From the NCBI GenBank assembly GCA_903862885.1, contig CAIOZU010000001.1, positions 1-40,870 of the forward strand: DNA of 40,870 nucleotides, given 5' to 3'. The translations under genes were made by a program, and so were the position numbers. Shown in pieces: positions 24,580-40,870 of the stretch (its first letter is position 1; every line of letters begins with the position of its first letter). The notes under the pieces are model-generated. The model saw nothing but the letters and a program-made list of their open reading frames with translations. It made no database searches and was not told where the DNA came from. The stretch comes from an uncultured Pseudomonadota bacterium. GTDB lineage: Bacteria; Pseudomonadota; Gammaproteobacteria; Steroidobacterales; Steroidobacteraceae.

Positions 24580-25854
24580 TCAGTGGTGGTGATGCGGCGG
24601 TGGGTGATCGCCATGGATCCAGTGCTGCACCTCGGAGAGCCGACGCGTCTCGGCATGCGCTTCGGGGTTCTGTTGCACAGCGAGCATGCTAGGTAAGCGG
24701 TGTGTGATGAGCGACCACCATTTGCGTGGATAGCCTAAGTAAATCAGTGGTGAGTTGACCGGGGTGCCAAACAGACTGGCGAGTGTTACCCGACTCGGGA
24801 ACACTTTTGATAATACAAAAGCGAATCGTGCGCGCCACGAGGCTTTGTCATCCAGCATCTGTGTCAGTCGCGTATCGCTTCGGGTGTCATAGTCTCTCAG
24901 CATCAACAAAGAGGCCGACTCAATGATCATGGGCAGCGAGGCGTCTTCGATCGGTCCCGCGTCCTGCCAGTCGATGGGCTGCGGTCCCCAGTAACGCTCG
25001 GTCATCTTCAGTGTCAGGACGCTGCTTTTAATCCAGTTCCCCGCATGGGCGCTTTGCCAGAACCCAGGCCAGTCGATGCGCTCACGCTCCAGTAGATAGG
25101 CGATGTCACTTAAGATCAAAGGCCCGTTATCAAACTGGTGATGATCGACCGCATGGACAATCAAATGCAGTAGTAAATCGGTTGGTGCTAAAAAGCGCAG
25201 GGTGTCCGTGCCCATAGAACGCGTGATACTGCGCTCCCACAATCGGGTCTCCTCAAGCGCATCCGGTTCATCCAAAGCAACCATACCGGGGTGCAGTAAT
25301 TGCGCATGGATTTCTACATTGGCGCGTCCAGAAGCTGACAGCAGCGGCGGTAAATGTTGCGCGAGCTTCATATAAGCCAGCGGATCACCGGGGTACTTTT
25401 CATTGCGCTTTAAGCCGCCATTGAGGGCTGCTTGATAGGCCGCAAGTACTTGCTTTTTATGGACCAATACATCCAGATCCCTGAGCGGTCGTAACGCCGC
25501 CTTCGGATAGCTATGAAAGGCCAAAAACGAGCCTTTGAGTGACAGATGCGCGATGCCGGCGTCTTCTAGGACGCGATGCAGCACGGTCAGTTCGCGTTGC
25601 AGTTCTAAGGCGCGCAGGGTAGCGCGCTTGAAGCTTGCCTCGAGCAGGGCCCGAAACGGTGCCGGGATCGTAAGCAATGCGTGGTGGTGTTGCAGTTGCC
25701 AGTGCAGCAGCGGCGCGATGCGATGTGACTTGATGGTGGATTCGATGGCGGCCCAATCGGTGGCATCTAGGGCTGCGATCGCGGCCTGATCCACCGACCG
25801 GGTCGGTGAGAGCATATCGAGCACCAGCGCGTGGCGAGTGGCTGGGGCGGTCAT
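24580..25854 (-). CDS. Lasso-cluster nucleotidyltransferase-like protein (PF14907)
   Basis: A 424-residue protein of the NTP_transf_5 family. The nucleotidyltransferase core is SLKGSFLAFHSYPKAALRPL followed by RDLDVLV, where the D-x-D pair would bind metal; helical regions surround it. The C-terminus is His/Pro-rich (HPPPHHHH). Members occur in lasso-peptide clusters that also carry an HPr-kinase-like enzyme; in the pseudomycoidin system the homologue was reported to add hexose to the phosphorylated C-terminal Ser. A similar tailoring role here is inference. It is the last gene of the leftward B1-B2-D-nucleotidyltransferase operon, with a 4-nt ATGA overlap with the ABC gene. Confidence 0.88.
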   Translation of the reverse strand: MTAPATRHALVLDMLSPTRSVDQAAIAALDATDWAAIESTIKSHRIAPLLHWQLQHHHALLTIPAPFRALLEASFKRATLRALELQRELTVLHRVLEDAGIAHLSLKGSFLAFHSYPKAALRPLRDLDVLVHKKQVLAAYQAALNGGLKRNEKYPGDPLAYMKLAQHLPPLLSASGRANVEIHAQLLHPGMVALDEPDALEETRLWERSITRSMGTDTLRFLAPTDLLLHLIVHAVDHHQFDNGPLILSDIAYLLERERIDWPGFWQSAHAGNWIKSSVLTLKMTERYWGPQPIDWQDAGPIEDASLPMIIESASLLMLRDYDTRSDTRLTQMLDDKASWRARFAFVLSKVFPSRVTLASLFGTPVNSPLIYLGYPRKWWSLITHRLPSMLAVQQNPEAHAETRRLSEVQHWIHGDHPPPHHHH

Positions 25855-27596
25855 AGCGGGCGTCCTTGTTGTGCCTTGACTTCAGCCCAGCTGCCGTGGG
25901 CGATGACTTGGCCATGGTCTAAAATAATTACCTGATCGGCGTGTTCTAAGGTGGGCAAGCGATGGCCGATGAGAATCACGGTGAGATCGCCGTGCAGTTG
26001 CTCGATCGCATCACGGATGCGCGCCTCATTGTCCACATCGAGCGCGCTGGTGGCTTCATCGAGAATCAATAGGGTGGGTTTTTTTAGCAGCGCACGCGCC
26101 AAAGCCAGTCGTTGGCGTTCGCCACCCGACAGCAGCACCCCGCCATCGCCGATCACCGTTTGCAGTCCCAACGGTAGCTGAAATACAAAGGCGGCGGCGG
26201 CTCGCTTGAGTACGTCGGCTAACTCGGTGTCGGTTGCCTCCGGGTGACCCCAGCGTAAGTTGTCGGCGACCGTCGCGTGGAATAAAAACACTTCCTGTGG
26301 GACATAAGCGACGGAGGCGCGCCAGTGCATACGGGCGCTGTCGGTGAGTAACTGATCGTCCACCCGCACTGTGCCGTGGTCGGCGGTGATTAAACCCATG
26401 AGTACATCGGCGAGGGTGCTTTTGCCGGCGCCGGATGCACCCATGATCGCGGTGGTGGTGCGCGCCGGGAAACGTAACGACACCTCCCGCAGCGCCGGTC
26501 TGTCACGATCGGGGTAGGACACGCTCACTCGCTCGAGCGTTATATGGGTGCTTAACAGCATCGGTGGTGGCGTGCCAGTGGTGGTGGGCTCAGCGTGCGC
26601 AGTCGCCTCGTCGAGCAGTTGGTAAGCTTCTTGTGAGGCCGGCAACGCTTGCAACCCGTTTTGATACAGCTGCTGGGCTTGGGTAAATAAGGGGATGAGT
26701 CGACTGAAAATGAACACCAGAGTCAGTAAGGTGGGTGCCGGGGTGTTTAAAAAAGTCAGACCGATGTACAGGTAGACGGCCAGTAAAATCGCGCCACTCA
26801 GTTGCAATAAGGCGCGCGATAGACTGCTGTTGCGGGTGAAATCGGTTTGTTGCTGGCGAAGTACATCCGTGGTGGCAGCGAACTCAGCTACCAAGCGTTG
26901 CTCGGCGCCTAAGATTTTGGCGAGCTTCATGCCGCCTAAGCTTTCATGGGCGCGCGCTTGTAAGGCGCGACTGGCCTCCCCCAGTTTTTGGCCTAGTCCA
27001 AAGGCTGCCTTGCGTTGTCCGGCGAGTAACCGCATGCATACACAGCCACTGACTAGGGCAATCGTCGTCATGCTGATCGATAGTGAAAAAGCGGCGATTA
27101 AGTAGGCAAAGATGGTGGTGAGGGTGCTGGTTAAGGAGATGGAATAGTTAAAGCCTTGGCCGACACGACTGATATTAGACAAGATCAAGTTGGCGTGATC
27201 GGATTGACGTTTAGAGGAAAGCCAACGCCAGTCTGAGCGCATCAGCGCATTAAAGCAGCGCACCCGCAGTCGATCCACCAGCTGCAGCTGTAAGCGATTT
27301 GACAGCTTGTCTTGCGTGAACTGCAATAGGCTACGACAGGTCACCAGCGCGGCAAACAGCGTCAGCAGGGCGGCGGTGCTTAACGGAATATGCAAGGTCG
27401 TCAGGGTCAGTTGAATGGCGTGCAACAGGCCGGTCGCTGTTTGGCTGCCGCCTTGTAAGAGGCTCAACAAGGGCACTAACAGCAAGATGCCGATGCCCTC
27501 TGACAGGCTAGTCAGTAGCATCAGGACAAAGAGCGTGAGCGTACCGGTCACCGACACATCGACCCACAGGCGTCTCAAGGGGAGCGCTTGACTCAT
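25851..27596 (-). CDS. Lasso-peptide ABC exporter (D protein)
   Basis: A 581-residue half-transporter with membrane and ATPase domains fused. Six membrane segments cover about 15-310. The nucleotide-binding domain has Walker A GASGAGKST, Q-loop VPQEVFLF, signature LLSGGERQRLALARALL, Walker B LLILDEATSALD and the switch His in IGHR. It exports mature lasso peptide and provides self-protection in known systems. The ATG at 27596 overlaps the B2 stop by 4 nt, marking tight coupling; the frame extends 13 codons upstream, without support. Confidence 0.93.
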   Translation of the reverse strand: MSQALPLRRLWVDVSVTGTLTLFVLMLLTSLSEGIGILLLVPLLSLLQGGSQTATGLLHAIQLTLTTLHIPLSTAALLTLFAALVTCRSLLQFTQDKLSNRLQLQLVDRLRVRCFNALMRSDWRWLSSKRQSDHANLILSNISRVGQGFNYSISLTSTLTTIFAYLIAAFSLSISMTTIALVSGCVCMRLLAGQRKAAFGLGQKLGEASRALQARAHESLGGMKLAKILGAEQRLVAEFAATTDVLRQQQTDFTRNSSLSRALLQLSGAILLAVYLYIGLTFLNTPAPTLLTLVFIFSRLIPLFTQAQQLYQNGLQALPASQEAYQLLDEATAHAEPTTTGTPPPMLLSTHITLERVSVSYPDRDRPALREVSLRFPARTTTAIMGASGAGKSTLADVLMGLITADHGTVRVDDQLLTDSARMHWRASVAYVPQEVFLFHATVADNLRWGHPEATDTELADVLKRAAAAFVFQLPLGLQTVIGDGGVLLSGGERQRLALARALLKKPTLLILDEATSALDVDNEARIRDAIEQLHGDLTVILIGHRLPTLEHADQVIILDHGQVIAHGSWAEVKAQQGRPL

Positions 27597-28099
27597 GGGG
27601 TGTTGGCGACGGACTGCTTGGGGCTTGTGAAACAACCGACGACGGTAAAGCTTTCAAAGCCATCGCCGCCGGTGACTCGAATGCGTCCCGCCGCGACCCA
27701 GGCGTGTGCTTTCATCTCAGCGGTGTCTTTGTCTTTCATGAGGCCAAAATAGATCGCGTACGGAATACCATACAGGCCGAGTAGCAGACGGGCGGTGATG
27801 GCTTGCGGAAAACAATTGGAATCCCACGGTGTGTAGCGGGCGATGGTCTTGACGGTACGACCGATCAGCAAGGCACACTGTTCTTGTTGAGCGCTCAACA
27901 CGGGTACCCATGCGCCGGTGCCGGACCAGGTCCCCAAATGTGGTGCCAAACGTCGGAATGAAAAGGTGAAGATAAAGGCCTTGGCGATACCCAGCACCAT
28001 CCACACCGGCGCATACCAGAGCTGTGAGAACAGAGGCTGGCGGCGAAAACTCGCTGTCTTACGGCCAATCAGAGCAAGCAATGCGGGGCGATAGGCCAA
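27593..28099 (-). CDS. Lasso leader peptidase B2 (transglutaminase-like)
   Basis: A 168-residue PF13471-type protein that removes the leader peptide. The Cys-His-Asp triad is visible: C96 in DSNCFPQA, H132 in AHAWV and D146 in TGGDGFESFTVVG. The basic, partly hydrophobic N-terminus (about 25-50) is common in split B2 proteins. It works with the separate B1 protein encoded 23 bp upstream on the same strand and needs it to recognise the leader. Stop overlaps the ABC gene start. Confidence 0.93.
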   Translation of the reverse strand: MAYRPALLALIGRKTASFRRQPLFSQLWYAPVWMVLGIAKAFIFTFSFRRLAPHLGTWSGTGAWVPVLSAQQEQCALLIGRTVKTIARYTPWDSNCFPQAITARLLLGLYGIPYAIYFGLMKDKDTAEMKAHAWVAAGRIRVTGGDGFESFTVVGCFTSPKQSVANTP

Positions 28100-28122
28100 T
28101 GGGAACCATCCTTCAAAGACGC

Positions 28123-28419
28123 TTAGCCGATCACCAATAAATTATTTTTTTCCATCGTCTGAAGGAAGGTCAAGACATCGGCTTCGCACTGTGCGGGGGT
28201 GACGGCGTACTCCTCACAGAGGGCGGCGCTGATCGCTTGTCCGGTGGTGGGCGTAACGAGCAGTGCCCAAATCGTTGGGCCGACCCCGCTTAAGCCATAA
28301 TAAGTGCCTTTTTCGATGCTCATCATGACCAAGTCGCCGTCCATATCGGTGCCGATCAGATCGGGATGACGAGACACAAGGGTGAGCAGAGTGAGATTGG
28401 TGGTGGATGGGTTATTCAT
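28123..28419 (-). CDS. Lasso leader-binding protein B1 (PqqD-like RRE)
   Basis: A 98-residue stand-alone RiPP recognition element of the PqqD fold: three N-terminal strands (DLIGTDMDGDLVMMSIEKGT, then YYGLSGVGPTIW) followed by three helices (TTGQAISAALCEEYAV, then EADVLTFLQTMEKNNLL). It should bind the conserved Tyr-x-x-Pro leader segment found in all four precursors of this window and hand them to B2 and the cyclase. The ATG at 28419 is preferred over a GTG five codons upstream. It is the first gene of the leftward operon. Confidence 0.9.
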   Translation of the reverse strand: MNNPSTTNLTLLTLVSRHPDLIGTDMDGDLVMMSIEKGTYYGLSGVGPTIWALLVTPTTGQAISAALCEEYAVTPAQCEADVLTFLQTMEKNNLLVIG

Positions 28420-28534
28420 AGTGTGACACCGCACTGAGGGGCGAGCGTTGTTCCTGCTTTACTCTATACGCTTGATCTGCGATTGTGCCTCACCGCAACG
28501 TTTTCCCCTCAACTGAAACTGGCTGGATGTGACC
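28420..28534. promoter_or_regulatory. Divergent control region between B1 operon and kinase 1
   Basis: The two lasso transcription units start back to back across about 115 bp, so both promoters must lie here. No textbook -35/-10 pair is obvious on either strand; ACTCTATACGCTTG near 28461 is the most promoter-like stretch. Confidence 0.35.
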
Positions 28535-29464
28535 ATGTTCACGAAAAATGCGAAAGCCAGTCGGTACGGCGCCTATGACTTGGTGATTCAGAGCGAGCTC
28601 AACTTGCCTGAGTTGCCTGTGCGGGCCGATGGTTTAGAGGCGGATGCCATCGATGTGCAGGTTCAATTTGGATCGATCGATGTCGATCGCTTGCAGGGGG
28701 GTGAGCAGATGTCGCCGACCTTATGGGTCGCGCGTCAGCAGCTGTGGATGCGTATCCCCGAGGTCGGTCAGTTTCTGATCTCTAACGGCCAGACGATCTT
28801 GATCGACCCGGTGCCGGGGGTCGATGAAGACAGCATTCGTTTATTCCTTTTAGGCTCCGCCTTTGGGGCACTGTTGTTTCAGCGTGGCTTGTTGGTGATG
28901 CATGGCAATGCCATTCAAATCAAAGACCAGTGTTTGATTTGCGTGGGCCGCTCTGGGGCGGGCAAGTCGACGACTGCCGCGGGCTTCATGCAGCGTGGCT
29001 ACTCGGTGCTTGCGGATGATGTGGTGCCGATTAATGGCGCCTGTCAAGCGCTCCCTGGCTTCCCGCGCATCAAGCTGTGGAAGGATGCGGCGGAACAGTT
29101 GTCGGTGGGCACGGATGCGCTGCGTCGTATTCGACCCACCTTGGAGAAGTTTAATTTGCCGTTGGAGCGCGCTTTCTCCTTGCAAAAGTTGCCGGTTCGT
29201 TGGATTTATATTTTAGATCCTACGGACGAGGTGAGCGAGATCACGATCACGCCCATTCAGGGAATGAATCGCTGGAAGCCCCTGCAAAACAACACCTATC
29301 GATCGCATTATTTAAAAGGGATGCGCCTGCAGGCGGAGCACTTGCAGTTATGTGGGCTACTCGCCAGTCGTATTCATTTGGCTCGCGTCAGGCGACCCAC
29401 CGCGGGATTTGAGCTGGAGGCCTTGGTTGATGCGATTTTAAAGGATGTGAGCGAGCAGTCGTAG
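28535..29464 (+). CDS. Lasso-peptide kinase 1 (HPr kinase/phosphorylase-like)
   Basis: A 309-residue protein of the HPr-kinase C-terminal family found in lasso clusters (PadeK type). Walker A GRSGAGKST lies at 138-146, preceded by the conserved MHGNAI (122-127) and followed by LADDVVPIN with D161-D162. HPr-type bacterial regulators are longer and have an N-terminal domain not seen here. In paeninodin biosynthesis the homologue phosphorylates the C-terminal Ser of the precursor; all four precursors in this window end in Ser. The ATG at 28535 with GGA upstream is preferred over the GTG at 28529. Convergent with the Cys-rich precursor, with a palindromic terminator between. Confidence 0.9.
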   Translation: MFTKNAKASRYGAYDLVIQSELNLPELPVRADGLEADAIDVQVQFGSIDVDRLQGGEQMSPTLWVARQQLWMRIPEVGQFLISNGQTILIDPVPGVDEDSIRLFLLGSAFGALLFQRGLLVMHGNAIQIKDQCLICVGRSGAGKSTTAAGFMQRGYSVLADDVVPINGACQALPGFPRIKLWKDAAEQLSVGTDALRRIRPTLEKFNLPLERAFSLQKLPVRWIYILDPTDEVSEITITPIQGMNRWKPLQNNTYRSHYLKGMRLQAEHLQLCGLLASRIHLARVRRPTAGFELEALVDAILKDVSEQS

Positions 29465-29510
29465 CGGGCACGGTGTGGTGTGCGGGCGAAGTACGCTGTC
29501 GATTTCGGAC

Positions 29511-29540
29511 AAAAAAAAGCCACGGCATGCCGTGGCTTTT
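29511..29540 (-). terminator. Palindromic intrinsic terminator
   Basis: A perfect 26-bp palindrome (29515-29540) with core GCCACGGCATGCCGTGGC is followed, in the leftward direction, by eight T residues (29518-29511). It lies 19 bp past the stop of the small precursor gene and should end that transcript strongly. In the rightward direction four T residues follow, so it may also stop kinase 1 transcription. Confidence 0.9.
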
Positions 29541-29559
29541 CGCGTTAAGCGAATGCTGC

Positions 29560-29697
29560 TTAGCTGCAGGCTTCCCAATCTTCGCAATTCTTCTTGCAGA
29601 CGCCGCTCTCGGTCTCGTTGAGATCCAACTCAACCAATTGAGGGGCCGCATAAACCTTCGCGCCGGTGTGAGCCAAAACAATGTCTTGTGTGTTCAT
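29560..29697 (-). CDS. Lasso-peptide precursor A1 (Cys-rich core)
   Basis: A 45-residue ORF with an excellent ribosome site (AAGAAGGATGATGAC before ATG). The leader contains Y16-A-A-P19-Q-L21, the Tyr-x-x-Pro-x-Leu motif recognised by B1, and T29, the usual Thr at -2. Cleavage after E30 would give the 15-residue core SGVCKKNCEDWEACS, with Ser1 and Glu9 able to form a 9-residue ring; a G1-Glu8 alternative (Thr at -3) is also possible. Cys4 and Cys8 would lie in the ring and Cys14 in the tail, allowing a disulfide. The core ends in Ser, the expected kinase target. It sits between kinase 1 and cyclase 1. That it is a lasso precursor is family inference; ring and disulfides are predictions. Confidence 0.85.
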   Translation of the reverse strand: MNTQDIVLAHTGAKVYAAPQLVELDLNETESGVCKKNCEDWEACS

Positions 29698-29942
29698 GTC
29701 ATCATCCTTCTTAAGTCAACGTATTCAGTGATCGCCTTTAAGCGGTATCGCCGGGTGGCGATCTCCACATTTCCCTGTATGTCCCTAAGCCATTTCCCTA
29801 GGCCTTCGGTTCCGGTTTTTTCCAGTGCCTTGAGTGGTACTGGACCGAGTCGCCTTAGCCCTTGATGTGCATGATGGAGATTCGTGAGGAAGCACCCCAC
29901 CCCCGGATGGGGGCTGAGGCCAGCGATTGTGAAGGCGTTCAC
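29694..29942 (-). CDS. Uncharacterised small ORF overlapping the A1 start
   Basis: An 82-codon frame whose TGA overlaps the A1 ATG (ATGA). The C-terminal half is hydrophilic and helical in appearance (LEKTGTEGLGKWLRDIQGN, then RYRLKAITEYVDLRRMMT). I do not recognise it. It could be a translationally coupled small protein, or a chance frame in the 5' leader of A1. A small perfect hairpin (ATCGCC-ACCC-GGCGAT) lies in this stretch near 29747-29762. Confidence 0.25.
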   Translation of the reverse strand: MNAFTIAGLSPHPGVGCFLTNLHHAHQGLRRLGPVPLKALEKTGTEGLGKWLRDIQGNVEIATRRYRLKAITEYVDLRRMMT

Positions 29943-30112
29943 AGAGGGTCCGCCGAGACCACAGATAACTTTTCTTACATATCAATGACTTATGATTTTA
30001 TCCGAGCGCACTTCCTGCAAAAGAAAAGCGCGTGATGCACGCAGGAACCCTCAAAAAGGGTCCTTAGGGCGGTCGGGGGTGCCTGAGGCGTCGAATCGCG
30101 CGGCGAGTGCGT
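29943..30112. other. Spacer between cyclase 1 and the A1 region
   Basis: AT-rich DNA at about 29960-30010 is a plausible promoter region for A1. Near 30048-30064 GGAACCCT and AGGGTCC form an imperfect hairpin past the cyclase 1 stop, without a long T-run. Confidence 0.3.
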
Positions 30113-31807
30113 TTATTCGGCGTGGAGCCAACGGTTGAGCCAGCGCAGTCGCTGGGCGTGGTTCTCTAGGCAATAGGCTAGCGTGCCCTCACTCCGAGCA
30201 TGGGCGGCGACTTCTAGGTGCTGTTGGAGTCGTGTGCGGTCAATCAGTGGCTCTAAGGCGGGGTGCAAGTTCGCTACTTCTCGCTGTGCCAGGGCGAGCA
30301 GTTGCGGTACTTGCTTGGCGGGTGCTTGACGTGCGAAGGGTTTGCCGGTGAGTGCTTTGCTTGGGTTCCACGTGATCTCGTGAGGCACCACCGCTTCTAT
30401 CGCGCGGCGATGTAAGTAGCGACCCAAGCCCTTCGGCCCACACTTTTCAATGCTCGGTGTTGAGAGATACTGTTGAACGAGGCGGGTGTCTAACAGGGGC
30501 CATTGGTAGTTCACGCCGAAGGCGGCCGCCATCACGGTGCACGCTTCCCCTCGAGAGTCGATGTGCGCTTTATCGAGCAGATGATCGATGAGGTAGTGAT
30601 TGACCGATCGATAGGGGGCATCGCGTCGGGCGGTGGCGATGTATCCCTCATAGAGCCCCTGCTGGGTGAGCACGTCATCGCGCACGATGCGCTGTTGCCA
30701 ACGGGCCTCCCATTCGATGTGATAGTCCGCTCGATGTGTAGCGACCTGTCGGCGCGTGCCAAGCGCTTTCGCAAAGCGCGCGGCGCGGGTGAGTGGGTTG
30801 CCGGGTAGTACGTCCCAAAGCCCCCGATAGTTGCCCGTGTCAGCGAATTCGTGGCGCACCAGATGGGCCCCGTGGGTGGCGGCCTCATCGCCTCCAAAGC
30901 CTGAAAATAGCGTGCGAATCCCATGAAACTGACATTCTTGGAACATCGGTAACAGATAAGTGCTGAGCGAGTTCTCGTGCGGATAGCCAAAGTGTCGGAT
31001 CCCCTCATCGACGAACTGATCGATCCGATCGTGGGTGGGTTGGGCGCTGATCACATGATTGAGGTAAATGCCTTTGCTCAGACTGGTGGCAAAAATGAGT
31101 GCCGGTTCATGTGCAAAGAGCGTGTATGAAAAGCCATGCAGCTGACGATCCGGCTCACCTAAGAAATCGCACAAATAAGCGGTGATGGTGCCGGAGTCGA
31201 TGCCGCCACTGTTTTCCGTGCCCATCGGCGCATGGCTGTCCATGCGGCAGCGAATCGCTTCCTCTAACACCTGTTGATAAGCCTCCACCCAACGGGCGTC
31301 GCGACGCGTGGCGTACGGCGCATCGTCTTGCCAGTGGTGGTAGCGCCACTCACGCATCTGGCCTTCGGCATTGATCAGTAGACAGTGGCTCGGCGCCACC
31401 TTGAACAATTCGCGGTAAGCGGTTTTTCTATGATCGGCTGAGATCTCAGTCAAAAAGCGCGCGATCCATTCGGGGTCGGGCGTGAAAGCCAGTGGGCATT
31501 TCTTTTTTAGATCCACCGCATTGAACGCGTGATAGAGCGTCCGGTTGACGAGGCGGTAATACAGGGGCTTCACCCCAAAGGGGGAGCGCGCCAAAAAAGT
31601 GCTGTGGGATTCGTGGTCTTCGATGACCAACGCGAAGTCACCGATCAGATGTTCTGGGGTGGCGGTGCCCCATTGGCGCCAAGCGGCGAGCACCACGCGG
31701 CTGGTCTCAGCAATCGGGTTGAGAGCGCTGTCGGCCACGAGGCCTAGCGTCTTGTGCAGCGCTTTTAGATTATGGATCTGGCCACTGAAATGAAGGGTCA
31801 CCGGCAT
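30113..31807 (-). CDS. Lasso cyclase 1 (asparagine-synthetase-like C protein)
   Basis: A 564-residue ATP-dependent macrolactam synthetase. The N-terminal glutaminase-like domain has FSGQIHNL and LARSPFGVKPLYY but starts Met-Pro, so the nucleophilic Cys2 of true asparagine synthetases is missing, as expected for lasso cyclases. The PP-loop ATP-binding motif SGGIDS is at 200-205. It adenylates the ring Glu/Asp side chain of the core and joins it to the N-terminal amine. It is visibly paralogous to the cyclase at 38808-40565 (both have RYHHWQD, GTENSGGIDS and RYLHRRAI). No clear ribosome site precedes the ATG. Confidence 0.92.
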   Translation of the reverse strand: MPVTLHFSGQIHNLKALHKTLGLVADSALNPIAETSRVVLAAWRQWGTATPEHLIGDFALVIEDHESHSTFLARSPFGVKPLYYRLVNRTLYHAFNAVDLKKKCPLAFTPDPEWIARFLTEISADHRKTAYRELFKVAPSHCLLINAEGQMREWRYHHWQDDAPYATRRDARWVEAYQQVLEEAIRCRMDSHAPMGTENSGGIDSGTITAYLCDFLGEPDRQLHGFSYTLFAHEPALIFATSLSKGIYLNHVISAQPTHDRIDQFVDEGIRHFGYPHENSLSTYLLPMFQECQFHGIRTLFSGFGGDEAATHGAHLVRHEFADTGNYRGLWDVLPGNPLTRAARFAKALGTRRQVATHRADYHIEWEARWQQRIVRDDVLTQQGLYEGYIATARRDAPYRSVNHYLIDHLLDKAHIDSRGEACTVMAAAFGVNYQWPLLDTRLVQQYLSTPSIEKCGPKGLGRYLHRRAIEAVVPHEITWNPSKALTGKPFARQAPAKQVPQLLALAQREVANLHPALEPLIDRTRLQQHLEVAAHARSEGTLAYCLENHAQRLRWLNRWLHAE

Positions 31808-33701: not shown

Positions 33702-33854
33702 ATGATCGATCACCTGCCTCATGACGCGAAGTGGAGGAGGCCCTATCAAGCACCTCAGGTGCAGCTGCTTTCGATGGGGTACACATTAAGTAAAATCCAA
33801 TCCGTACTCGAATTTTTTACCACCGATGGCCGGGCCTTAGGTGTTACTAGTTAA
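33702..33854 (+). pseudogene. Lasso-type precursor A2, probable 5'-truncated duplicate
   Basis: A 50-codon frame whose 3' part from P14-Y15 onward is nearly identical to precursor A3. The leader keeps Y15-Q-A-P and T28 at -2; the predicted core starts SKIQSVLEF (Ser1-Glu8 ring) and ends RALGVTS, one residue different from A3 (Leu for Ala). The N-terminal leader differs completely, and the ATG has no ribosome site or promoter, whereas A3 has both. It is therefore more likely a silent copy left by a duplication than a working gene. If it is expressed, the product would still have all recognition residues. Confidence 0.55.
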
Positions 33855-33899
33855 CCCTCTGGACGTGGTGACCGCCGCCGGACTTCCAGTCGGCGGTAT
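33742..33899 (+). repeat. 158-bp direct duplication, copy 1
   Basis: Matches 34993-35150 at a constant offset of 1251 bp with no indels and eight substitutions that I count. It covers the conserved part of the leader, the entire core, the stop and about 45 bp beyond, including a small hairpin (GCC-g-GACT/AGTCGGC). Confidence 0.95.
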
Positions 33900-33942
33900 G
33901 GAGTGTCTGCTCGGTTGGCGCACTCACTGTGCGTCGCTGCGA

Positions 33943-34287
33943 TCAGTCGCGATCCGTCATATGAAATTGATGTAAGAGCCGGTGTAGGACGGGGGCCGCC
34001 AAAATGCCGGTAGTCACCAAGAGCACCAGCCCGCAATACAAGGCATAACAGCCCGCAAAGAGCTTGGCCGCATCCGAGTGCATGGTGTCCACTGGACCCA
34101 TCCCACCCATCAGCATCGCGGCATTCACAAACGCATCCACAAAGGATAGGCCTTCTAGCCAGTGGTAGCCCAAGATGCCGACCATTAAGGAGCCACTCAT
34201 CAGGAGGGAGGCGAGTACCCCATGCCGCAGTAAGCGGCGGATAAAAAAACGAGAGGAGGCGATGGGGTGGTGTCTTTTTTCGTACAT
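33943..34287 (-). CDS. Two-helix membrane protein with ion-channel-like pore segment
   Basis: About 114 residues from the ATG at 34287. Two membrane helices (about 22-42 and 76-99) flank a re-entrant-like segment NAAMLMGGMGPV (about 55-66), the layout of two-helix potassium channels. The filter is not the canonical TVGYG, so ion selectivity and even channel function are inference. The basic N-terminus (YEKRHHP, RFFIRRLLRH) is cytoplasmic by the positive-inside rule. It lies between the two precursor copies but is on the opposite strand. Confidence 0.65.
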   Translation of the reverse strand: MYEKRHHPIASSRFFIRRLLRHGVLASLLMSGSLMVGILGYHWLEGLSFVDAFVNAAMLMGGMGPVDTMHSDAAKLFAGCYALYCGLVLLVTTGILAAPVLHRLLHQFHMTDRD

Positions 34288-34483
34288 AGGCGCAGCTCGC
34301 GGGGTGAGTGTCGTGGCATCCAATGGTCAGTCAGTCAAGGCGCACGTGCATGCGACGCCTTAAAGAGTGTTCTACCATCGCATGGCCGTGGCGTCGATGG
34401 TCTTGTCGATGGTCTTTGAGGGATGCGACTCCATCCGCTGCCGGTGGGTGGCGTGGGTTAGTCGGTGACGTCACGGCAGACGG

Positions 34484-34683
34484 TCAGCGCTTAAAGTCAA
34501 CACGGAACACCGTGCGATCACAGGCGCTGTCATTCCATGCCTCATGCTCCATGGTGTCATCAAAGACCAAGCAGCGGCCTTCCGCCAGGCTCGGGTCTCG
34601 GCGCCCACTCTCAGGCCACAGCCCGCCGGGATGATTAAGCCGAGATGACAGCGCAGCACCGTGCTGCTGTAGCCGCTGTGTGC
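34484..34683 (-). pseudogene. Aspartyl/asparaginyl beta-hydroxylase remnant, frameshifted
   Basis: The C-terminal part of an AspH-type Fe(II)/2-oxoglutarate hydroxylase (PF05118) is readable in two frames. The first gives AHSGYSSTVLRCHLGLIIP and GCGLRVGAETRAW, with the conserved LR-x-HL-x-L and the RVG-x-E motif. A one-base shift near 34585 then continues EGRCLVFDDTMEHEAWND and RTVFRVDFKR to a TGA at 34484. Iron-binding His residues (HLG and HEAW) are recognisable. The 5' part is cut by a stop at 34684 and no start is present. It is a dead gene, probably a former tailoring enzyme. Confidence 0.85.
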
Positions 34684-34816
34684 TTAGATGCAGGTATCAG
34701 GCGCTCACCAGGAAAAGCCGGCCGTGGTCATGCTGGGTAAGGATTCAATGGATGAGTGGTGTGGGGACACACGGCGCAATGGCGCGTGAGTTCTGAGCTC
34801 AGACGTTTTGTCCAAG

Positions 34817-34845
34817 TTGACATGAAGTGCGACGGTGTATATAAA
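34817..34845 (+). promoter_or_regulatory. Near-consensus sigma-70 promoter upstream of precursor A3
   Basis: TTGACA (34817-34822), a spacer of exactly 17 nt and TATAAA (34840-34845). Transcription would start near 34852, leaving a 5' leader of about 77 nt before the A3 ATG. Confidence 0.85.
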
Positions 34846-34928
34846 CGCGAATTGTGAGCATTTTGGTGCTGCGCGCGCCAAATGGTTTTCGTGTCTAAAA
34901 TAATGCTTAAATCCGAGGCGTATGAGAT

Positions 34929-35105
34929 ATGACCCGTCAGACAGCAGCCGATAGTGCGGCTTTGCAAAGCACCGACCAGCGCGTCGGTTTGCCTTATCAG
35001 GCACCTCAGGTGCAGCTGCTTTCGATGGGGTACACATTAAGTAAAATCCAATCCGTACTCGAATTTTTTACCACCGATGGCCGGGCCGCAGGTGTTACTA
35101 GTTAA
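34929..35105 (+). CDS. Lasso-type precursor peptide A3
   Basis: A 58-residue ORF with GAGG about ten bases before the ATG and a near-consensus promoter further up. The leader has Y23-Q-A-P26-Q-V28, and T36 sits 13 residues after the Tyr, exactly as in A1. Cleavage after L37 gives a 21-residue core that begins SKIQSVLEF and ends GRAAGVTS: Ser1 and Glu8 can form an 8-residue ring, and the C-terminal residue is Ser. An acidic Asp at core position 13 is outside ring range. The adjacent operon reads in the opposite direction, so A3 is likely monocistronic. Ring position is predicted, not shown. Confidence 0.8.
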   Translation: MTRQTAADSAALQSTDQRVGLPYQAPQVQLLSMGYTLSKIQSVLEFFTTDGRAAGVTS

Positions 35106-35150
35106 CCCTCTGGACGTGGTAACCGCGGCCGGACTCTCAGTCGGCGGTAT
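34993..35150 (+). repeat. 158-bp direct duplication, copy 2
   Basis: Counterpart of 33742-33899. Copy 2 carries the intact gene A3. Confidence 0.95.
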
Positions 35151-35590
35151 CGTCGGGAGTCGAGAGGATGCCTCGTTCCAGAGGCATGACTGGGTTTAAT
35201 GGCGGTCAGGGAGGGGGCCTAGGTCCGGCTTCGGTGTCTTTTTTTTAAGCAAATTGCAGTCGCTGACCGGGCGCGCAACGCGCCCCTGTCTCATCGGCGC
35301 TCCTCAACCGACCAGTCGCTTGTCAATCAAACGCGTCCCGACACACGAGTGTCCGACACACCGGCACCCAACAGACAGGGTCTTGCTCACCATCTTCGGT
35401 GTCCATGTGGCTGCTCTCATTGATTCGCTTTGGAGCGAAGTGCGGAGGGTCGCGGCACCCCCGTGTTCTTTTGTGCGCTCTCGTAGATGGGTCGCATCGC
35501 TCATCTGATCGCGCCGTCTAAAGGTCTCGAGCACCGCCTTGGATTATGCTCGGGTAGGCGGTTATCTGGTCGAACCTGACGTCCTGTGAG
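35106..35590. other. Intergenic region between A3 and the ATP-grasp gene
   Basis: No supported gene. After the A3 stop comes the hairpin shared with copy 1; it has no T-run. A T-tract at about 35239-35246 follows GC-rich sequence and could serve as a weak terminator. Open frames here are short and lack ribosome sites. Confidence 0.3.
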
Positions 35591-36862
35591 TCAGTGATCT
35601 CGGCTTGACCCTTCCGCCGCCAAGACACCGCCTCGCTGTCCTTGCACCGCTGACAGACCCCAACCGCTATTGCCCTCAAGCAGCACAGGCCCGCTGGGGG
35701 TGAGCACCCAATCCCAGGCAATGGATGCGATGTCCGGGAATAATTGTTGGGCGTGGAGACTGTGCGAGACCACACTTGCCCAATAGGGCAATTCACCCAG
35801 CCTTTGCTGTTGTAGCTCAATGCGCGCCAGTGCCTGCTCATAGAGCCCACTCCAGTGGACGGAGCGAATCGGTGGACCCACCCGCCCCTGATGGGGTTCA
35901 ATAGGCAAGATCACATAAAGCGTCTCGCCCTTATCCCTGCGTCCGGCGGGTATCTCTAAAAAAGCGTCTAAGGTCTGCGGTGTGGAGTCCCTCCCAGAGG
36001 ACCAGGTGGTGATCAAGCGGACGGTGATAATTTCTTCTGGGCTGATCGATAGAGGGGCAAGGAGCGGGTGATCCAGCAGACAAGGCTGTATGAGTGACTG
36101 ATCAAGAGCGCACAGCGCGCGCCACGCCGCTTCGACGGCCTCGCTGTCCACTAATTCTTGCCCCGTGAATAGCCGCCCTTGTAGGCCGGTATGGCTTCGC
36201 CACACCGCAAAGGCCCCACGTCCTTGATTGCCACTGTTGGTTTTGCAAAACGCCCGTGGCGTGTCACCCAGTAACTCAGAGAGTGTGGGTGTGGCCTCGC
36301 GGGCGGGGCGGGCGAGGGTGGGGACCATCGGCACTCCGTGTGCGCTCAACCAATCGGCCAGTGCCGTCTTGTCTTGCATGCGTTGCAACGACGAGGCGTA
36401 AACGCCTCGTGCGTGATTGCGCCACGCGTGATACGCACCGGTCTCTTGTCGGTACACATAGTCGAGTGCGCGTTGGGGGTCACGATACAAGCGAAAGGCA
36501 TAGGCTTCGCTCGCAGGAATACACCACGCCAGACCGAGCCACAGGAGACGACGCGCTTGGCAAGCAAGTGAAATGCCTTCGTGTGCGGCAATCGAAGGCC
36601 CTACCCGTTTCACCACGCGCAGGGTGTGCGGCACCAGATGGAGGAACTGCCAACGAAGCCACAGCAGCACCTGTACTACCAGCCAAAGGCCGCGTGGCCA
36701 GTGCTGACCGCTGTGCCACCAAAACTGGCGGTGTAAACGCGCCCGTGGGTCTTGGCTAGACCCGAGATAGCAAGGACTCATGAGCCCCCCGGGCAGTCGA
36801 CGCCGCAGCAGTTCGCGTGTCAGCACCCGGCCCCAGCGGCGAAGAGCGGGGCGGGCGATCAT
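35591..36862 (-). CDS. ATP-grasp protein (ATPgrasp_ST-like)
   Basis: A 423-residue protein. A hydrophobic/Trp-rich helical N-terminus (about 45-125) precedes an ATP-grasp fold of the sugar-transferase-associated type (PF14397): FCKTNSGNQGRGAFAVWR supplies the lysine and glycine-rich loop, EEIITVRLITTW the central strand, and VLLEGNSGWGLSAVQG the metal-binding Glu/Asn near the C-terminus. ATP-grasp enzymes join a carboxylate to an amine, thiol or similar group through an acyl phosphate. It directly follows the sulfotransferase stop with no gap, so it belongs to the kinase 2-sulfotransferase-ATP-grasp operon. A role in peptide tailoring is inference. Confidence 0.8.
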   Translation of the reverse strand: MIARPALRRWGRVLTRELLRRRLPGGLMSPCYLGSSQDPRARLHRQFWWHSGQHWPRGLWLVVQVLLWLRWQFLHLVPHTLRVVKRVGPSIAAHEGISLACQARRLLWLGLAWCIPASEAYAFRLYRDPQRALDYVYRQETGAYHAWRNHARGVYASSLQRMQDKTALADWLSAHGVPMVPTLARPAREATPTLSELLGDTPRAFCKTNSGNQGRGAFAVWRSHTGLQGRLFTGQELVDSEAVEAAWRALCALDQSLIQPCLLDHPLLAPLSISPEEIITVRLITTWSSGRDSTPQTLDAFLEIPAGRRDKGETLYVILPIEPHQGRVGPPIRSVHWSGLYEQALARIELQQQRLGELPYWASVVSHSLHAQQLFPDIASIAWDWVLTPSGPVLLEGNSGWGLSAVQGQRGGVLAAEGSSRDH

Positions 36863-37717
36863 CTAAAGGCTCTGACCGTTCGCATCTAAATAACCAAAGC
36901 GCTGCATCACCTCGCCGTGCGCTTCGATGAGCCGCGCTACTTGATCGGCCGTCAATTGGGTGCGCCAGTTGCCGCTTTGCCCTTGACGAAAAAATCGCTC
37001 GGCTTTGTTCGGTTTTTCGCGAAACGGATTCGCAGATTCTTGGCGACGCAGTTCCTTAAAGTCACTGAAGCGGATCGCTTTATCGATGCGCGCTTCATCA
37101 CTGGGCAGTTGCAGAAAGCGCACCGCGCCGCTGAAGGTAGGCGTCGGTGACTGCAGCATGTCCTCGTAGCGGATGACATGACAGTTCAGTCCCGGGGAAT
37201 CGACCCAGCTTCGTACATGATCAGACCACGACAGCAGCTGCTGGCGCACTTGATTGAAGAGTTTTTTGCGGCCCCAGCAGAAGGCATTATCCGGATCGCC
37301 CATCCATCGAATCGCCTCATCTACGCTAACGTTCGAGTGCTGGGCGTACGAGGGCGCCACATCCAGTGGATTGCGGATGATGTACAGCGCACCTAAGGTG
37401 CCACCTTGACTGACCAAAGGTTCGCCATCAGCGGTGAACGTATAGGCATCGTGAATCTTGTGGTAGCCGATCTCCGGATCACGCGTCGACCAGCGATAGA
37501 CCGCCGGGCGCAGCTGGTCGAGATCGTCGTGGGAAAAATCTGCGCTATCAAAACCCAGGACTTCATCAAGCCATCCGCGGCTGCTCGCAATCTGTCCGGT
37601 GGACAGTGCATTGATATCCACCGGCTGGTCGGCATCCTCAATGAGATTTTGCATAAAGCTTCGAAACCAGGTGTTGCCTGATTTGGGATAAGACGCCAGC
37701 CAGTAAATGCCGCCCAT
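36863..37717 (-). CDS. Sulfotransferase-family protein
   Basis: A 284-residue PAPS-dependent sulfotransferase-fold protein. The 5'-phosphosulfate loop is WLASYPKSGNTWFRSF at the N-terminus, and the 3'-phosphate-binding motif is YIIRNPLDVAPSYAQH near 112-127. The C-terminal part (RRQESANPFREKPNKAERFF, then GNWRTQLT) matches the family's K-x-x-F-F-R-x-G-x-x-G-x-W region, here FFRQGQSGNW. The acceptor would be a hydroxyl or phenol; Ser, Thr and Tyr occur in the nearby precursor cores. Two bases separate it from the kinase 2 stop. Confidence 0.92.
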   Translation of the reverse strand: MGGIYWLASYPKSGNTWFRSFMQNLIEDADQPVDINALSTGQIASSRGWLDEVLGFDSADFSHDDLDQLRPAVYRWSTRDPEIGYHKIHDAYTFTADGEPLVSQGGTLGALYIIRNPLDVAPSYAQHSNVSVDEAIRWMGDPDNAFCWGRKKLFNQVRQQLLSWSDHVRSWVDSPGLNCHVIRYEDMLQSPTPTFSGAVRFLQLPSDEARIDKAIRFSDFKELRRQESANPFREKPNKAERFFRQGQSGNWRTQLTADQVARLIEAHGEVMQRFGYLDANGQSL

Positions 37718-37719
37718 GC

Positions 37720-38619
37720 TTAAGGGTGCTCCGCGATGTCGGCTAAGAGTGCATCGATCAGCGGCTCGAGATCAAAGGCGTCGTCAGGGCGCACGACTCG
37801 CGCCAGATGGATGCGTCCAGCGAGCGTGCCACACAGCGCCAGATGCTGGGTTTTTAAAGCAAGCTCCGTCATGAAGCGAATGCGATAGCTTTGGTTGGCG
37901 AGTGGCGTGAAGCGGTTCATGCCATAAATGGCTTCGATGCGCGGCACCTCGGCGCGGCGGCGCTCTAAGGTGTACACCCACCGTACCGGCAGGGCCCGTC
38001 GGGGGCCTGGGTGCACGATGGGGACGTTAAAGCGCTCGGTGTGAGGACGAATGCGTCGTAAGGCGCTACTGTCCCACTGCAGTTTATCGAGCACATCTTT
38101 CCAGAGCTTCAGACGAGGCGCCCCCGGCACCACCTCGCAGGCGGCATTGATCGGTACCACATCATCGGCGATGGCCTCGTAGCCGCGTTGCATGAAGCCT
38201 GCAGCGAGGGTTGATTTGCCGACACCGGATTGGCCCACACACACCAGGCACTGATCGCCAATACGAATGGCGTTGCCATGCAATACCAAGTGCCCGCGCT
38301 GAAACAGTAGGACCCCGATGGGCGAGGCGAGTAAAAACACACGCAGACTGTCCTCATCGATGCCGGCTGCTGGATCGATCACGATCTCACGACCCTCACG
38401 GATCAGAAAGTGCGCCACGGAGGGCACATGCAGCCACAGGCTTGTGGCATTCACCCACAGAAAAGGACCAATGGGCTGCCCATCGGGGAGCCCGTCGCGA
38501 TCGATCGCGCCGTAGCGGATGACGATGGCAGGTAGGGTGGTGTCGTGCTCGGTGGCCGGGGCGAGCTCCGGTAACAGCAAATCACTGTGAATCAGCAGGT
38601 TATAAGCGCAATACGCCAT
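37720..38619 (-). CDS. Lasso-peptide kinase 2 (HPr kinase-like)
   Basis: A 299-residue paralogue of kinase 1. Walker A GQSGVGKST at 129-137, LHGNAI at 113-118 and ADDVVPIN with D152-D153 align residue for residue with kinase 1, as does the run GFMQRGY between them. The N-terminus (YCAYNLLIHSDLLLPEL) also matches kinase 1 (YDLVIQSELNLPEL). It heads the leftward operon kinase 2-sulfotransferase-ATP-grasp and diverges from cyclase 2. Expected to phosphorylate a precursor hydroxyl, most likely the C-terminal Ser; having two kinases suggests different substrates. Confidence 0.9.
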   Translation of the reverse strand: MAYCAYNLLIHSDLLLPELAPATEHDTTLPAIVIRYGAIDRDGLPDGQPIGPFLWVNATSLWLHVPSVAHFLIREGREIVIDPAAGIDEDSLRVFLLASPIGVLLFQRGHLVLHGNAIRIGDQCLVCVGQSGVGKSTLAAGFMQRGYEAIADDVVPINAACEVVPGAPRLKLWKDVLDKLQWDSSALRRIRPHTERFNVPIVHPGPRRALPVRWVYTLERRRAEVPRIEAIYGMNRFTPLANQSYRIRFMTELALKTQHLALCGTLAGRIHLARVVRPDDAFDLEPLIDALLADIAEHP

Positions 38620-38807
38620 GGGGTTCGTTCAATCTATCCGCAATGAAGCCCATCCGTCCGCCCCGTCTCCGATCGATCGCATCGGCGGTGTCTTAGGCGG
38701 CATCTGGATCGTCGAGTGCTCACGTGTAAAAGCATAGCGTAATCAAAGCGTCGTCTGCTTTCAATTGATGGTTGTGCGTCTCAGCCATCTCTTTTACAGT
38801 GCTTTTC
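38620..38807. promoter_or_regulatory. Divergent control region between kinase 2 and cyclase 2
   Basis: This gap of about 190 bp must contain promoters for the kinase 2 operon and for cyclase 2. The AT-richer stretch 38720-38800 is the most likely location; no clear consensus pair is seen. Confidence 0.4.
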
Positions 38808-40565
38808 ATGACGCACTCACAGATGACGGATAGTCTCTCGGTCGATATGGTAGGGCAGATCCATAATCTGGACGCCGTGCGTGGCCAGTTAGCGGTCGCT
38901 GAGACGGATGTGGCATCGGTGTTGCACCATGCCTGGCGACGGTGGGGTGTGCGGATGGCCGAGCACCTGATCGGTGTATTCGCCTTGGTCATCAAAGACG
39001 AGTCACAAAAGCTGACTTATCTCGCGCGCGATGCCTTGGGGGTGAAGCCGCTTTTTTATCGTATCGATCAGGGTGCGCTCTGCTATGGCTGGAGCGTGCC
39101 TGAGTTGGTGAGCCGAAGCAGCGCCCAGCCACTGACCAAAGACATTGATTGGGCGGCCGCTTATCTGCTGGGACTGTCCTTTAGCCAAACCGACACCGCT
39201 TACCGAGAAATAAAAAAATTGCCCGCGGGTCACTGGATGACCCTTGATGCGAGGGGGCAAGCGGTGATCTCTCGATACCACCACTGGCAGGACAATCCAC
39301 CGATGGCCAGTCGACGCGATCCGCGCTGGGTCGAGGCCTATCGCGAGGTCTTAGAGGAGTCCATTCGTTGTCGGATCGACCCCGATGCGCCGATCGGCAC
39401 CGAAAACAGTGGCGGCATTGACTCCGCCACCATCACCGCCTACCTCGCGCGCTTGCTCGGTGAACCCGGAGACCGATTGCATAGTTTTGGCTTTGCATTT
39501 GCAGAACAAGAGCCCGCTTACATTTTAGAGACCAGTCAGGCGTCGAATATATGCCATAACTATCTCATCACGGGTCGTCAGCAGGCGGTACACACCGCGG
39601 CCGCGCGCGGTCTGGCGGCCTTTGGGTATCCGGTGGAGCACGGTAATTCGATTAGCCATACGTTATTTTATGAGGAGTGCCAACGGCGCGGGATCCGTTC
39701 GCTGCATTCAGGCTTTGGTGGCGATGAAATCGTCACCAACCAAGGCCATCATCTGCGCTTTGAGTTGTTAGACCAACAGCAGTACGCGGGTCTTTGGAAC
39801 ATCTTACCGGGGAATCTCCTCACGCGTGCCCTGCGCCTGATCAAGGCGGTCGCCTTCCAGCCGCCCCGACCCGCCTATAACCGCTCGTTTTTTAGGGCGT
39901 GGAATCAGCGCTGGCCACATCAGTTGCTGCGACCGGAGGTAGTGCAGCGCCTGCAACTCTATGAGCGCTATATGGAGACGGCGATTTTTGATGCGCCTTT
40001 TAGGCGCATCAATGACTGGGTCTTGCAGTACCACTTGCAGCGTATGCAAATCGCTGCTCGCTTAGAGAGTTGCACGGTGGTCGCGGCGAGTTATGGTATT
40101 GATTATCGTTGGCCGCTCTTCGATGCACGGCTGATTCAGCAATACCTGTCGACGCCAGGTATTGAGAAGGTTGGCCCAAACGGCATGGGTCGTTACCTGC
40201 ATCGGCGCGCCATTGACGGCGTCGTGCCTCATCGGGTGGCGTGGAAGCCGAGCAAAGACATGGGCTATGCGCAATTGATCACACGAGCGAATGCCGAGGG
40301 GGTCGCTCGATTGGCTGAATCGGTGCAGTCGCTTGAGGAGGGGCTACACCCTGACTTAGAGGCCTTGGTGGATCATGATAAATTCAAACAACAACGGGCC
40401 AAAGCCAAACAAGGCGCCGTGGACGATGCCTTTGGTTTTGCGTTTATAAAATCAAGCAGTGCGCTTTTGACGCTTAACGCGTGGTGGCTCAGCGAGAGCG
40501 GGGCAGTGGGTGGCCGCTGGGTAAGGGGAGTGCTTAGCTTGAACACCAAAGGGAATTGCACCTGA
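38808..40565 (+). CDS. Lasso cyclase 2 (asparagine-synthetase-like C protein)
   Basis: 585 residues from the ATG at 38808; in-frame ATGs at 38772 and 38823 are alternatives. Domain order equals cyclase 1: glutaminase-like N-domain (VGQIHNLDAV, LARDALGVKPLFY) without a catalytic Cys2, then the synthetase domain with SGGIDS at 201-206. It forms the macrolactam between residue 1 and the ring Glu. The last residues (LSLNTKGNCT) are read from DNA that is, on the other strand, the decayed second copy of the A4 core repeat, so its 3' end may have been reshaped by that duplication. Convergent with precursor A4. Confidence 0.92.
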   Translation: MTHSQMTDSLSVDMVGQIHNLDAVRGQLAVAETDVASVLHHAWRRWGVRMAEHLIGVFALVIKDESQKLTYLARDALGVKPLFYRIDQGALCYGWSVPELVSRSSAQPLTKDIDWAAAYLLGLSFSQTDTAYREIKKLPAGHWMTLDARGQAVISRYHHWQDNPPMASRRDPRWVEAYREVLEESIRCRIDPDAPIGTENSGGIDSATITAYLARLLGEPGDRLHSFGFAFAEQEPAYILETSQASNICHNYLITGRQQAVHTAAARGLAAFGYPVEHGNSISHTLFYEECQRRGIRSLHSGFGGDEIVTNQGHHLRFELLDQQQYAGLWNILPGNLLTRALRLIKAVAFQPPRPAYNRSFFRAWNQRWPHQLLRPEVVQRLQLYERYMETAIFDAPFRRINDWVLQYHLQRMQIAARLESCTVVAASYGIDYRWPLFDARLIQQYLSTPGIEKVGPNGMGRYLHRRAIDGVVPHRVAWKPSKDMGYAQLITRANAEGVARLAESVQSLEEGLHPDLEALVDHDKFKQQRAKAKQGAVDDAFGFAFIKSSSALLTLNAWWLSESGAVGGRWVRGVLSLNTKGNCT

Positions 40566-40722
40566 AGTGGATTCGGATGCAAAGGACGCCTTACCTGCTG
40601 TACCGAGCGTAACCGGCAGGGGGTTAGCTGAGGCCATACTGAATTCCACCTGAAGTGGATTCGTTTGCATAGGGCACCTTTATACTTGCTGTACCGAGCG
40701 TAACCGGCAGGGGGGTTAGCTG
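40534..40722. repeat. Tandem duplication of the A4 core-coding segment (about 91 bp x 2)
   Basis: Leftward reading: copy 1 (40722-40624) encodes PLPVTLGTA and the A4 core through its stop; copy 2 (40630-40534) repeats it as NPLPVTLGTA then GKASFASESTSGAIPFGVQ. Copy 2 has one C fewer in the poly-C run, three bases fewer in the core and extra bases before the original stop, so it is out of frame with A4. Its own frame (ATG at 40670) lacks the Tyr-x-x-Pro leader. Confidence 0.9.
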
Positions 40723-40827
40723 TGGCGCTTGGTACGGCGTCTTCATCCAACGGGTTGTCGCGCCGGTGATGGCGGGTGCGGCCTCTAAGGTTGCCGAATC
40801 GCGACGAGTGCTCAGCATCATGTTCAT
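40624..40827 (-). CDS. Lasso-type precursor peptide A4
   Basis: Up to 67 residues; ATGs at codons 1, 3, 4 and 28 are possible, with AGAGG about 12 bases before the first. The leader has Y32-Q-A-P35-Q-L37. T46 at -2 and cleavage after A47 give the 20-residue core SIKVPYANESTSGGIQYGLS, with Ser1-Glu9 able to close a 9-residue ring and Ser at the C-terminus. If T43 were the -2 residue, the core would start with Gly but have no acid at 7-9, so T46 is favoured; the Tyr-to-Thr distance is then one residue longer than in A1-A3. It converges on cyclase 2. Confidence 0.75.
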   Translation of the reverse strand: MNMMLSTRRDSATLEAAPAITGATTRWMKTPYQAPQLTPLPVTLGTASIKVPYANESTSGGIQYGLS

Positions 40828-40870
40828 TGGCTTTATTGGCCTCTGTCTCTACCGGAGTGGCAAAAAAAGA

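Follow-up and report, generated by a model that had tools for sequence, protein, structure and literature searches.

How can a lasso peptide locus with two cyclases manage with one leader-binding protein (B1), one leader peptidase (B2) and one exporter (D)? This question is raised by positions 24,580 to 40,827 of contig CAIOZU010000001.1 (GenBank assembly GCA_903862885.1), which comes from an uncultured bacterium of the Steroidobacteraceae and was analysed at its full length of 40,870 nucleotides (hereafter the window). We read this stretch as probably a composite kinase-type lasso locus, in which one leader-binding, cutting and export set would serve two cyclase-kinase modules and yield C-terminally tagged lasso peptides of three types. 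Sharing of B1, B2 and D is the best-supported reading of the gene counts, the likeness of the leaders and the synteny.

Gene counts and precursors

The window is one complete contig of an assembly of 2.79 Mb in 73 contigs (estimated completeness 99.31%, contamination 0.44%), and gene families were assigned with Pfam and NCBIfam models. In the whole assembly, B2 is present in a single copy, B1 is the sole PqqD match, and there is one PF14907 protein (the nucleotidyltransferase NT) and one PF14397 protein (the ATP-grasp protein GRASP), while HPr-kinase-C proteins (K1 and K2) and lasso-type cyclases (C1 and C2) are found twice each. A third cyclase match, at 76 bits, is weak and Asn-synthase-like. 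A second, weak transglutaminase match on contig C53 lies below the Pfam cut-off and does not match the lasso B2 model at E 1e-5. Eight sulfotransferase-family matches exist in the assembly, one of them on this contig (ST). A second B1, B2 or NT has no match in any of the 73 contigs, and the asymmetry of the gene counts is not a window-edge effect as far as the assembly reaches.

From 24.6 kb to the right end, the locus reads NT, D, B2 and B1 (all minus strand), K1 (plus), A1 and C1 (minus), then a short-chain dehydrogenase (minus), A2 and A3 (plus), GRASP, ST and K2 (minus), C2 (plus) and A4 (minus), as follows:

24580-25854, minus strand: NT, nucleotidyltransferase (PF14907); its homologues lie beside D/B2 in relatives
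25851-27635, minus strand: D, ABC exporter (PF00005 and PF00664); start codon uncertain, the listed open reading frame (ORF) overlaps B2
27593-28099, minus strand: B2, leader peptidase (NF033537, 80.6 bits, cut-off 33), with the stretches NCFPQA and HAWV
28123-28434, minus strand: B1, PqqD-like RRE, leader-binding protein (NF033536, 81.7 bits, cut-off 80)
28529-29464, plus strand: K1, HPr-kinase-like (PF07475), likely C-terminal Ser kinase of module 1, with H125, K146, D163 and D164
29560-29697, minus strand: A1, precursor, core SGVCKKNCEDWEACS, with Ser1, Glu9 and three Cys
30113-31807, minus strand: C1, lasso cyclase of module 1 (PF00733), SGGIDS and GGDE intact, long branch
33702-33854, plus strand: A2, precursor, core SKIQSVLEFFTTDGRALGVTS, with Glu8; an alternative TTG start is possible at 33654
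34929-35105, plus strand: A3, precursor, core SKIQSVLEFFTTDGRAAGVTS; its 3' part is a duplicate of A2
35591-36862, minus strand: GRASP, ATP-grasp protein (PF14397)
36863-37717, minus strand: ST, sulfotransferase (PF00685), directly downstream of K2, with the stretches YPKSGNTW and RNPLD
37720-38619, minus strand: K2, HPr-kinase-like (PF07475, over cut-off), likely C-terminal Ser kinase of module 2, with HGN, GKST and ADD
38772-40565, plus strand: C2, lasso cyclase of module 2 (PF00733), SGGIDS and GGDE intact; start codon uncertain
40624-40827, minus strand: A4, precursor, core SIKVPYANESTSGGIQYGLS, with Glu9, convergent with C2
40546-40623, minus strand: partial tandem copy of A4, core-like GKASFASESTSGAIPFGV..., found from repeat families, pairwise alignment and reading frames

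A sequence-only reading of this DNA had described one B1, one B2 and one ABC exporter, together with two Asn-synthetase-like cyclases, two HPr-kinase-like enzymes and four precursor-like ORFs. All of these were recovered in their places, the first three by NF033536, NF033537 and PF00005/PF00664, and the others by PF00733, HPr-kinase-C and a motif scan. That reading had named a second B1/B2 set as the finding that would speak against it; we looked for such a set and found none in the 73 contigs. The Ser end of all cores, the presence of NT, GRASP and ST in the set and the fifth, partial copy of A4 go beyond what it had described.

No gene frame of the locus contains an internal stop. GC content at third codon positions is 0.60–0.69 in the locus genes except for A2 (0.53) and A3 (0.51), compared with 0.65–0.69 in four genes from the left part of the window. 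Just after A1, an inverted repeat followed by a T run (29518-29537) is a likely terminator. It is not listed by the promoter scan, which was uninformative, with 3 matches compared with 7.4 in shuffles.

The four precursors carry cores of three types: SGVCKKNCEDWEACS in A1, SKIQSVLEFFTTDGRA[L/A]GVTS in two copies (A2 and A3), and SIKVPYANESTSGGIQYGLS in A4. As the sequence-only reading had claimed, a YxxP leader, a Thr at position -2 and Ser1 are common to all four, and the acceptor is Glu8 (A2, A3) or Glu9 (A1, A4). In addition, all four cores end in Ser, and the distance from the Tyr of YxxP to the Thr is always 13 or 14 residues. Thus the features of lasso precursors (YxxP, Thr at -2, Gly/Ser/Ala/Cys at core position 1, Glu/Asp at 8 or 9) are found in 4 of 4. 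Formulated as a strict pattern (YxxP; Thr 12–17 residues after the Tyr; Gly/Ser/Ala/Cys two residues further on; Glu/Asp at core position 8 or 9; stop), they match exactly A1 to A4 over the window and nothing in its left 24.6 kb, compared with a mean of 0.11 matches (0.01 ending in Ser; maximum 1) in 200 dinucleotide shuffles of 24580-40870 (16.3 kb). By sequence statistics, the precursors are real, far beyond chance.

Part of this diversity comes from copied cassettes. The stretches 33740-33899 and 34991-35150 (160 nt, 95% identical) span the sequence from just before the YxxP codons of A2 and A3 through the core and stop and beyond, and the leader sequence upstream of YxxP is not alike between the two. 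Their cores differ by a single change, Leu to Ala. The partial copy in tandem to A4 comprises the leader end and the core without a YxxP of its own; its frame is broken and runs past the expected end, and it has probably decayed. The last codons of C2, whose C-terminal tail extends beyond the ends of related cyclases in the alignment, overlap this copy antisense. The unit copied twice in the locus thus looks to be the leader motif or leader end together with the core, one copy having probably decayed.

Cyclases and related loci

C1 and C2 are 44% identical, and both carry PF00733 over its cut-off together with SGGIDS, as expected of a lasso cyclase. The best NCBIfam match of both is the cyclase model NF033535, but at 191 and 187 bits they stay below its cut-off of 525. 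C2 is 61–62% identical to a Dechloromonas cyclase. A phylogeny, which had been proposed along with the sequence-only reading, was built from 24 cyclase rows. It joins C2 with Dechloromonas (92/85), then this group with Methylobacter (98/94), and places C1 as the sister of these four (99/98). A forced clade of C1 and C2 is 14.7 log units worse (p-AU 0.035). We therefore reject a recent duplication: C1 and C2 are no recent local copy, because the Dechloromonas and Methylobacter cyclases branch with C2 while C1 stays outside. Barring transfer, the split of C1 and C2 would be older than that of C2 from the Dechloromonas and Methylobacter cyclases, and C1 would have evolved faster since (end branch 1.08, compared with 0.39 for C2).

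Compared with the Dechloromonas metagenome-assembled genome (MAG), in which D adjoins B2 and NT, the window's B2 has 62% and its D 57% identity; B2 is equally close or closer to Halochromatium (66%) and UBA3588 (67%). These relations are compatible with an older complement of B1/B2/D/NT and C2/K2/ST/GRASP, to which C1/K1/A1 may be an extra module.

The long branch of C1 would also fit one working single-cyclase cluster accompanied by a decaying or differently employed paralogue that would have ceased to make peptide; it may be C1 or the A4/C2 end, where the partial copy has lost its frame and is overlapped by the end of C2. Both cyclases and both kinases have open frames and intact motifs, however, and A1 and A4, each complete in leader and core, adjoin one cyclase each; we hold this explanation to be distinctly improbable.

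In the same tree, the cyclases of two Chloroflexota MAGs (L023, L026) group with that of Azospirillum in a mostly Pseudomonadota part (91/86), which suggests transfer between phyla or binning errors.

Returning to the shared set, related loci were collected by a pattern-based scan of one genome per species (84,980 species). With a six-row cyclase alignment the scan yielded 51 loci, while a two-row alignment had recovered no relatives. Neighbour genes were sought with the proteins of the window as tblastn queries (E 1e-4), a search in which many loci are cut by contig ends and distant homologues are missed. Among the 51 loci, matches were found for B1 in 35, K in 34, B2 in 27, GRASP in 27, ST in 22, D in 21 and NT in 11. 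In locus L014 (genome G196), repeats lie in the frames between B1 and B2, at about 5450-6090. The strict precursor pattern finds 14 matches in 13 of the loci (846 kb) and none in most of the 51. Nine matches end in Ser (L019, L020, L022, L024, L027, L028, L039, L049, L054), and the other five are read as chance. A looser scan adds Ser-ending candidates, one example lying ahead of the second cyclase in a Magnetococcales MAG (L013), plus many chance-like ones.

Most of these loci (49 of 51; flanks up to 10 kb) have a single cyclase match, which bears out the earlier statement that lasso clusters usually have one cyclase. The exceptions are a Legionellaceae MAG (L057) with three adjacent cyclase-like frames, of which two were tested and both have NF033535 as best match, and a Coxiellaceae MAG (L047) with two cyclase-like frames. 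Among 398 genomes drawn evenly from the phylum, a cyclase match at E 1e-50 occurs in 5, the source genome included. Matches in plasmid records are all below 60% identity, the best rows being near 25%.

All 39 genomes behind the related loci contain a cyclase match and a B2 match. Counting only cyclases above 200 bits, which avoids the many Asn-synthase-like matches at about 140–192 bits, we found at least two cyclases with one B2 in 4 of 39: G604 (Magnetococcales), whose second cyclase is truncated at the edge of a contig, and G621, G622 and G624 (Coxiellaceae). G598 has two cyclases, the second at 204 bits, and two B2. In the three Coxiellaceae genomes (stretches L081, L084 and L090), B1, B2, D, two K and one ST lie around B2, with NT in 2 of 3; these B2 stretches contain no cyclase match, and the cyclases above 200 bits are on other contigs. 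Two of those Coxiellaceae cyclases that were retrieved (L079, L083) adjoin GRASP. Weaker cyclase-like matches occur on the B2 contig about 48 kb away in G622 (162 bits) and about 363 kb away in G621 (158 bits). This suggests that a B1/B2 set away from a cyclase is not peculiar to the window. The claim that one processing set serves parallel modules therefore gains from the assembly-wide counts and the shared leader motif, but the arrangement is not unique, with 4 of 39 other genomes being similar.

Several observations weigh against a shared set. Only 43 bp of contig follow the A4 ORF, and the physical neighbours of module 2 are thus outside it; a near-identical second B1/B2 could also have been collapsed during assembly. 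None of the 195 other relatives of the source genome has such a cyclase at E 1e-40 (1 of 196 with the source genome itself), and these relatives thus offer no comparison for conservation of the exact locus. The reverse case, two B2 with one cyclase above 200 bits, occurs in 6 of 39 genomes (G605, G607, G609, G615, G617, G623), from which it follows that other cyclase types escape the threshold and that these counts are rough. The kinase tree leaves the placement of K1 relative to K2 unsettled, and in L014 two kinases stand beside a single cyclase, so the number of kinases need not follow that of cyclases.

The contig end also leaves room for two neighbouring, once complete lasso clusters, with the second B1/B2/D beyond it or recently lost. 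Ancestry would lead one to expect a B1 near C2, since Methylobacter and Dechloromonas have B1 immediately next to their C2-type cyclase; in the window, the slot beside C2 is occupied by K2, and the assembly, in spite of its high completeness, has no second B1, B2 or NT match to offer. We consider two such clusters unlikely.

Putative processing route and tailoring genes

In the composite locus that we favour, the pairing of cyclases with precursors, every chemical step and the export are predicted from sequence. The single B1 would bind the common YxxP leader through its RRE and present each precursor to the single B2, which would cut after the residue following the conserved Thr. K1 and K2 would place a phosphate on the C-terminal Ser, probably at the precursor stage, as happens in paeninodin, and the two cyclases would join Ser1 to Glu8/9, each for different core types. 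The single NT and ST, and possibly GRASP, may bring in additional groups once phosphorylation has taken place and could serve every precursor; the single exporter D would release all products. The neutral masses calculated for the predicted macrolactams without modification are 1639.643 for A1 (free thiols), 2237.169 for A2, 2195.122 for A3 and 2052.016 for A4; phosphorylation would raise each by 79.966, and hexosylation by another 162.053.

C1 would most likely act on the Cys-rich A1, whose position between K1 and C1 is the ground for assigning it to C1/K1. For C2 the most likely substrate would be A4, assigned to C2/K2 because of its position and because Methylobacter precursors are likewise convergent with their cyclase. 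A2 and A3 adjoin no cyclase and are left without an assignment. Release of some precursors, such as these two, as linear phosphorylated peptides would resemble the LPP family of Bacillota, whose clusters, as described in passages of PMC13381572, share the kinase-type machinery and the YxxP leader and have no cyclase. Thr-2, Ser1 and Glu8 are nevertheless kept in A2 and A3, and no signal-peptidase-like frame was noticed in the locus, although no model search was aimed at one; a linear product seems highly improbable to us.

The kinases are 54% identical. Both keep HGN, GKST and ADD, and the residues of the reported His-Lys-Asp-Asp motif occur in the right order in each, as read from the K1 and K2 sequences themselves. 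A sequence search of the PDB with K1 returned ABC transporters (E 0.0007) and HPr kinase (E 0.0017). Passages of PMC9266682 give the C-terminal Ser of the precursor as the residue that PadeK-type kinases phosphorylate, and they link the nucleotidyltransferase homologue PsmN to the addition of a hexose to the resulting phosphate. NT, which matches PF14907 at E 9e-41, may be a homologue of PsmN.

ST starts two bases behind K2. A sequence search of the PDB gave distant sulfotransferases, the best being TEG12 (E 9e-13). In all 22 related loci with an ST match, ST is preceded on its own strand by a kinase no more than 120 bases away, which makes it most likely that ST would act on or after the kinase product. 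Tyr as a general sulfation target is doubtful, there being no Tyr in the cores of A1, A2 and A3 or in several cores of relatives. The review PMC8498205 mentions, in the passages searched, Firmicutes lasso clusters with a sulfotransferase gene or a nucleotidyltransferase gene. The locus also points to a conserved kinase-then-sulfotransferase pair, for which no sulfated lasso product is named in the review passages searched.

The predicted model of GRASP (pLDDT 89.4) matches only distant ATP-grasp enzymes in a fold search of the PDB (RimK, D-Ala ligases, an ATP-grasp peptide ligase), with TM by query of at most 0.37 among the 50 matches listed; matches this remote do not indicate a substrate. 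Between C1 and A2 lies a short-chain dehydrogenase (31946-33511), which was rejected as a tailoring enzyme, since matches to it lie near 0 of the 51 related cyclase loci. Its N-terminal stretch contains Cys, and it also has a short LTG repeat.

A wider picture can be put forward tentatively, in which B1, B2, D and NT form a hub shared by several cyclase-kinase spokes, each spoke handling a particular core type. The window would hold this hub-and-spoke arrangement within a single locus, and in some Coxiellaceae and Magnetococcales MAGs it may be spread over the genome. If so, the choice of the core to be tied would fall to the cyclase and not to the RRE, and further spokes and copied core cassettes would be the source of new products. 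If one RRE, protease and exporter set feeds two cyclases, leader recognition would be naturally separated from core folding, as the mixing of cyclases for engineered lasso peptides requires. Core specificity of cyclases that share a B1/B2 could readily be tested on this locus.

Comparison with known systems

Clusters of the paeninodin/pseudomycoidin type consist of A, B1, B2, C and D genes, as this locus does. To our knowledge, one cyclase per cluster is usual in this subgroup, though no formal requirement, and the locus departs from it with two. Of the subgroup's features, the His-Lys-Asp-Asp kinase and the C-terminal Ser are present and the single cyclase is not. The kinase (PadeK/PsmK) and the C-terminal Ser are shared with those clusters, and NT is a candidate counterpart of their nucleotidyltransferase homologue PsmN (passages of PMC9266682). 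Unlike them, the locus has two cyclases, two kinases, four precursors of three types, a sulfotransferase and a PF14397 ATP-grasp protein.

The LPP family resembles the locus in its YxxP leader, RRE and kinase-type tailoring, but lacks a macrolactam cyclase, of which the locus has two, and the locus thus falls outside that family (passages of PMC13381572). The same passages describe a lasso cluster whose several precursors have one leader motif in common but divergent cores, as well as the motif [Y/W]xxPx[L/V/I/A/F/Y] for discrete RREs. In the parts of the open-licence literature that were searched, we found no report of two lasso cyclases sharing one B1/B2 and none of a PF14397 ATP-grasp protein with lasso clusters, which is weak evidence of absence.

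Among the related genomes, the Coxiellaceae MAGs G621, G622 and G624 resemble the window in having one B2 and at least two cyclases above 200 bits, and differ from it in that the cyclases are on other contigs. The loci of Methylobacter (L019, L020), Azospirillum (L024) and Dechloromonas (L018) contain the C, B1, K, ST and GRASP families in varying part, with B2/D/NT on another contig in Dechloromonas. L019, L020 and L024 have Ser-ending precursors by the strict scan, like the window, and the Methylobacter precursor is convergent with its cyclase as A4 is with C2. B1 is directly beside the cyclase in Methylobacter and Dechloromonas, whereas K2 adjoins C2 in the window, and all these loci have one cyclase match compared with two in the window.

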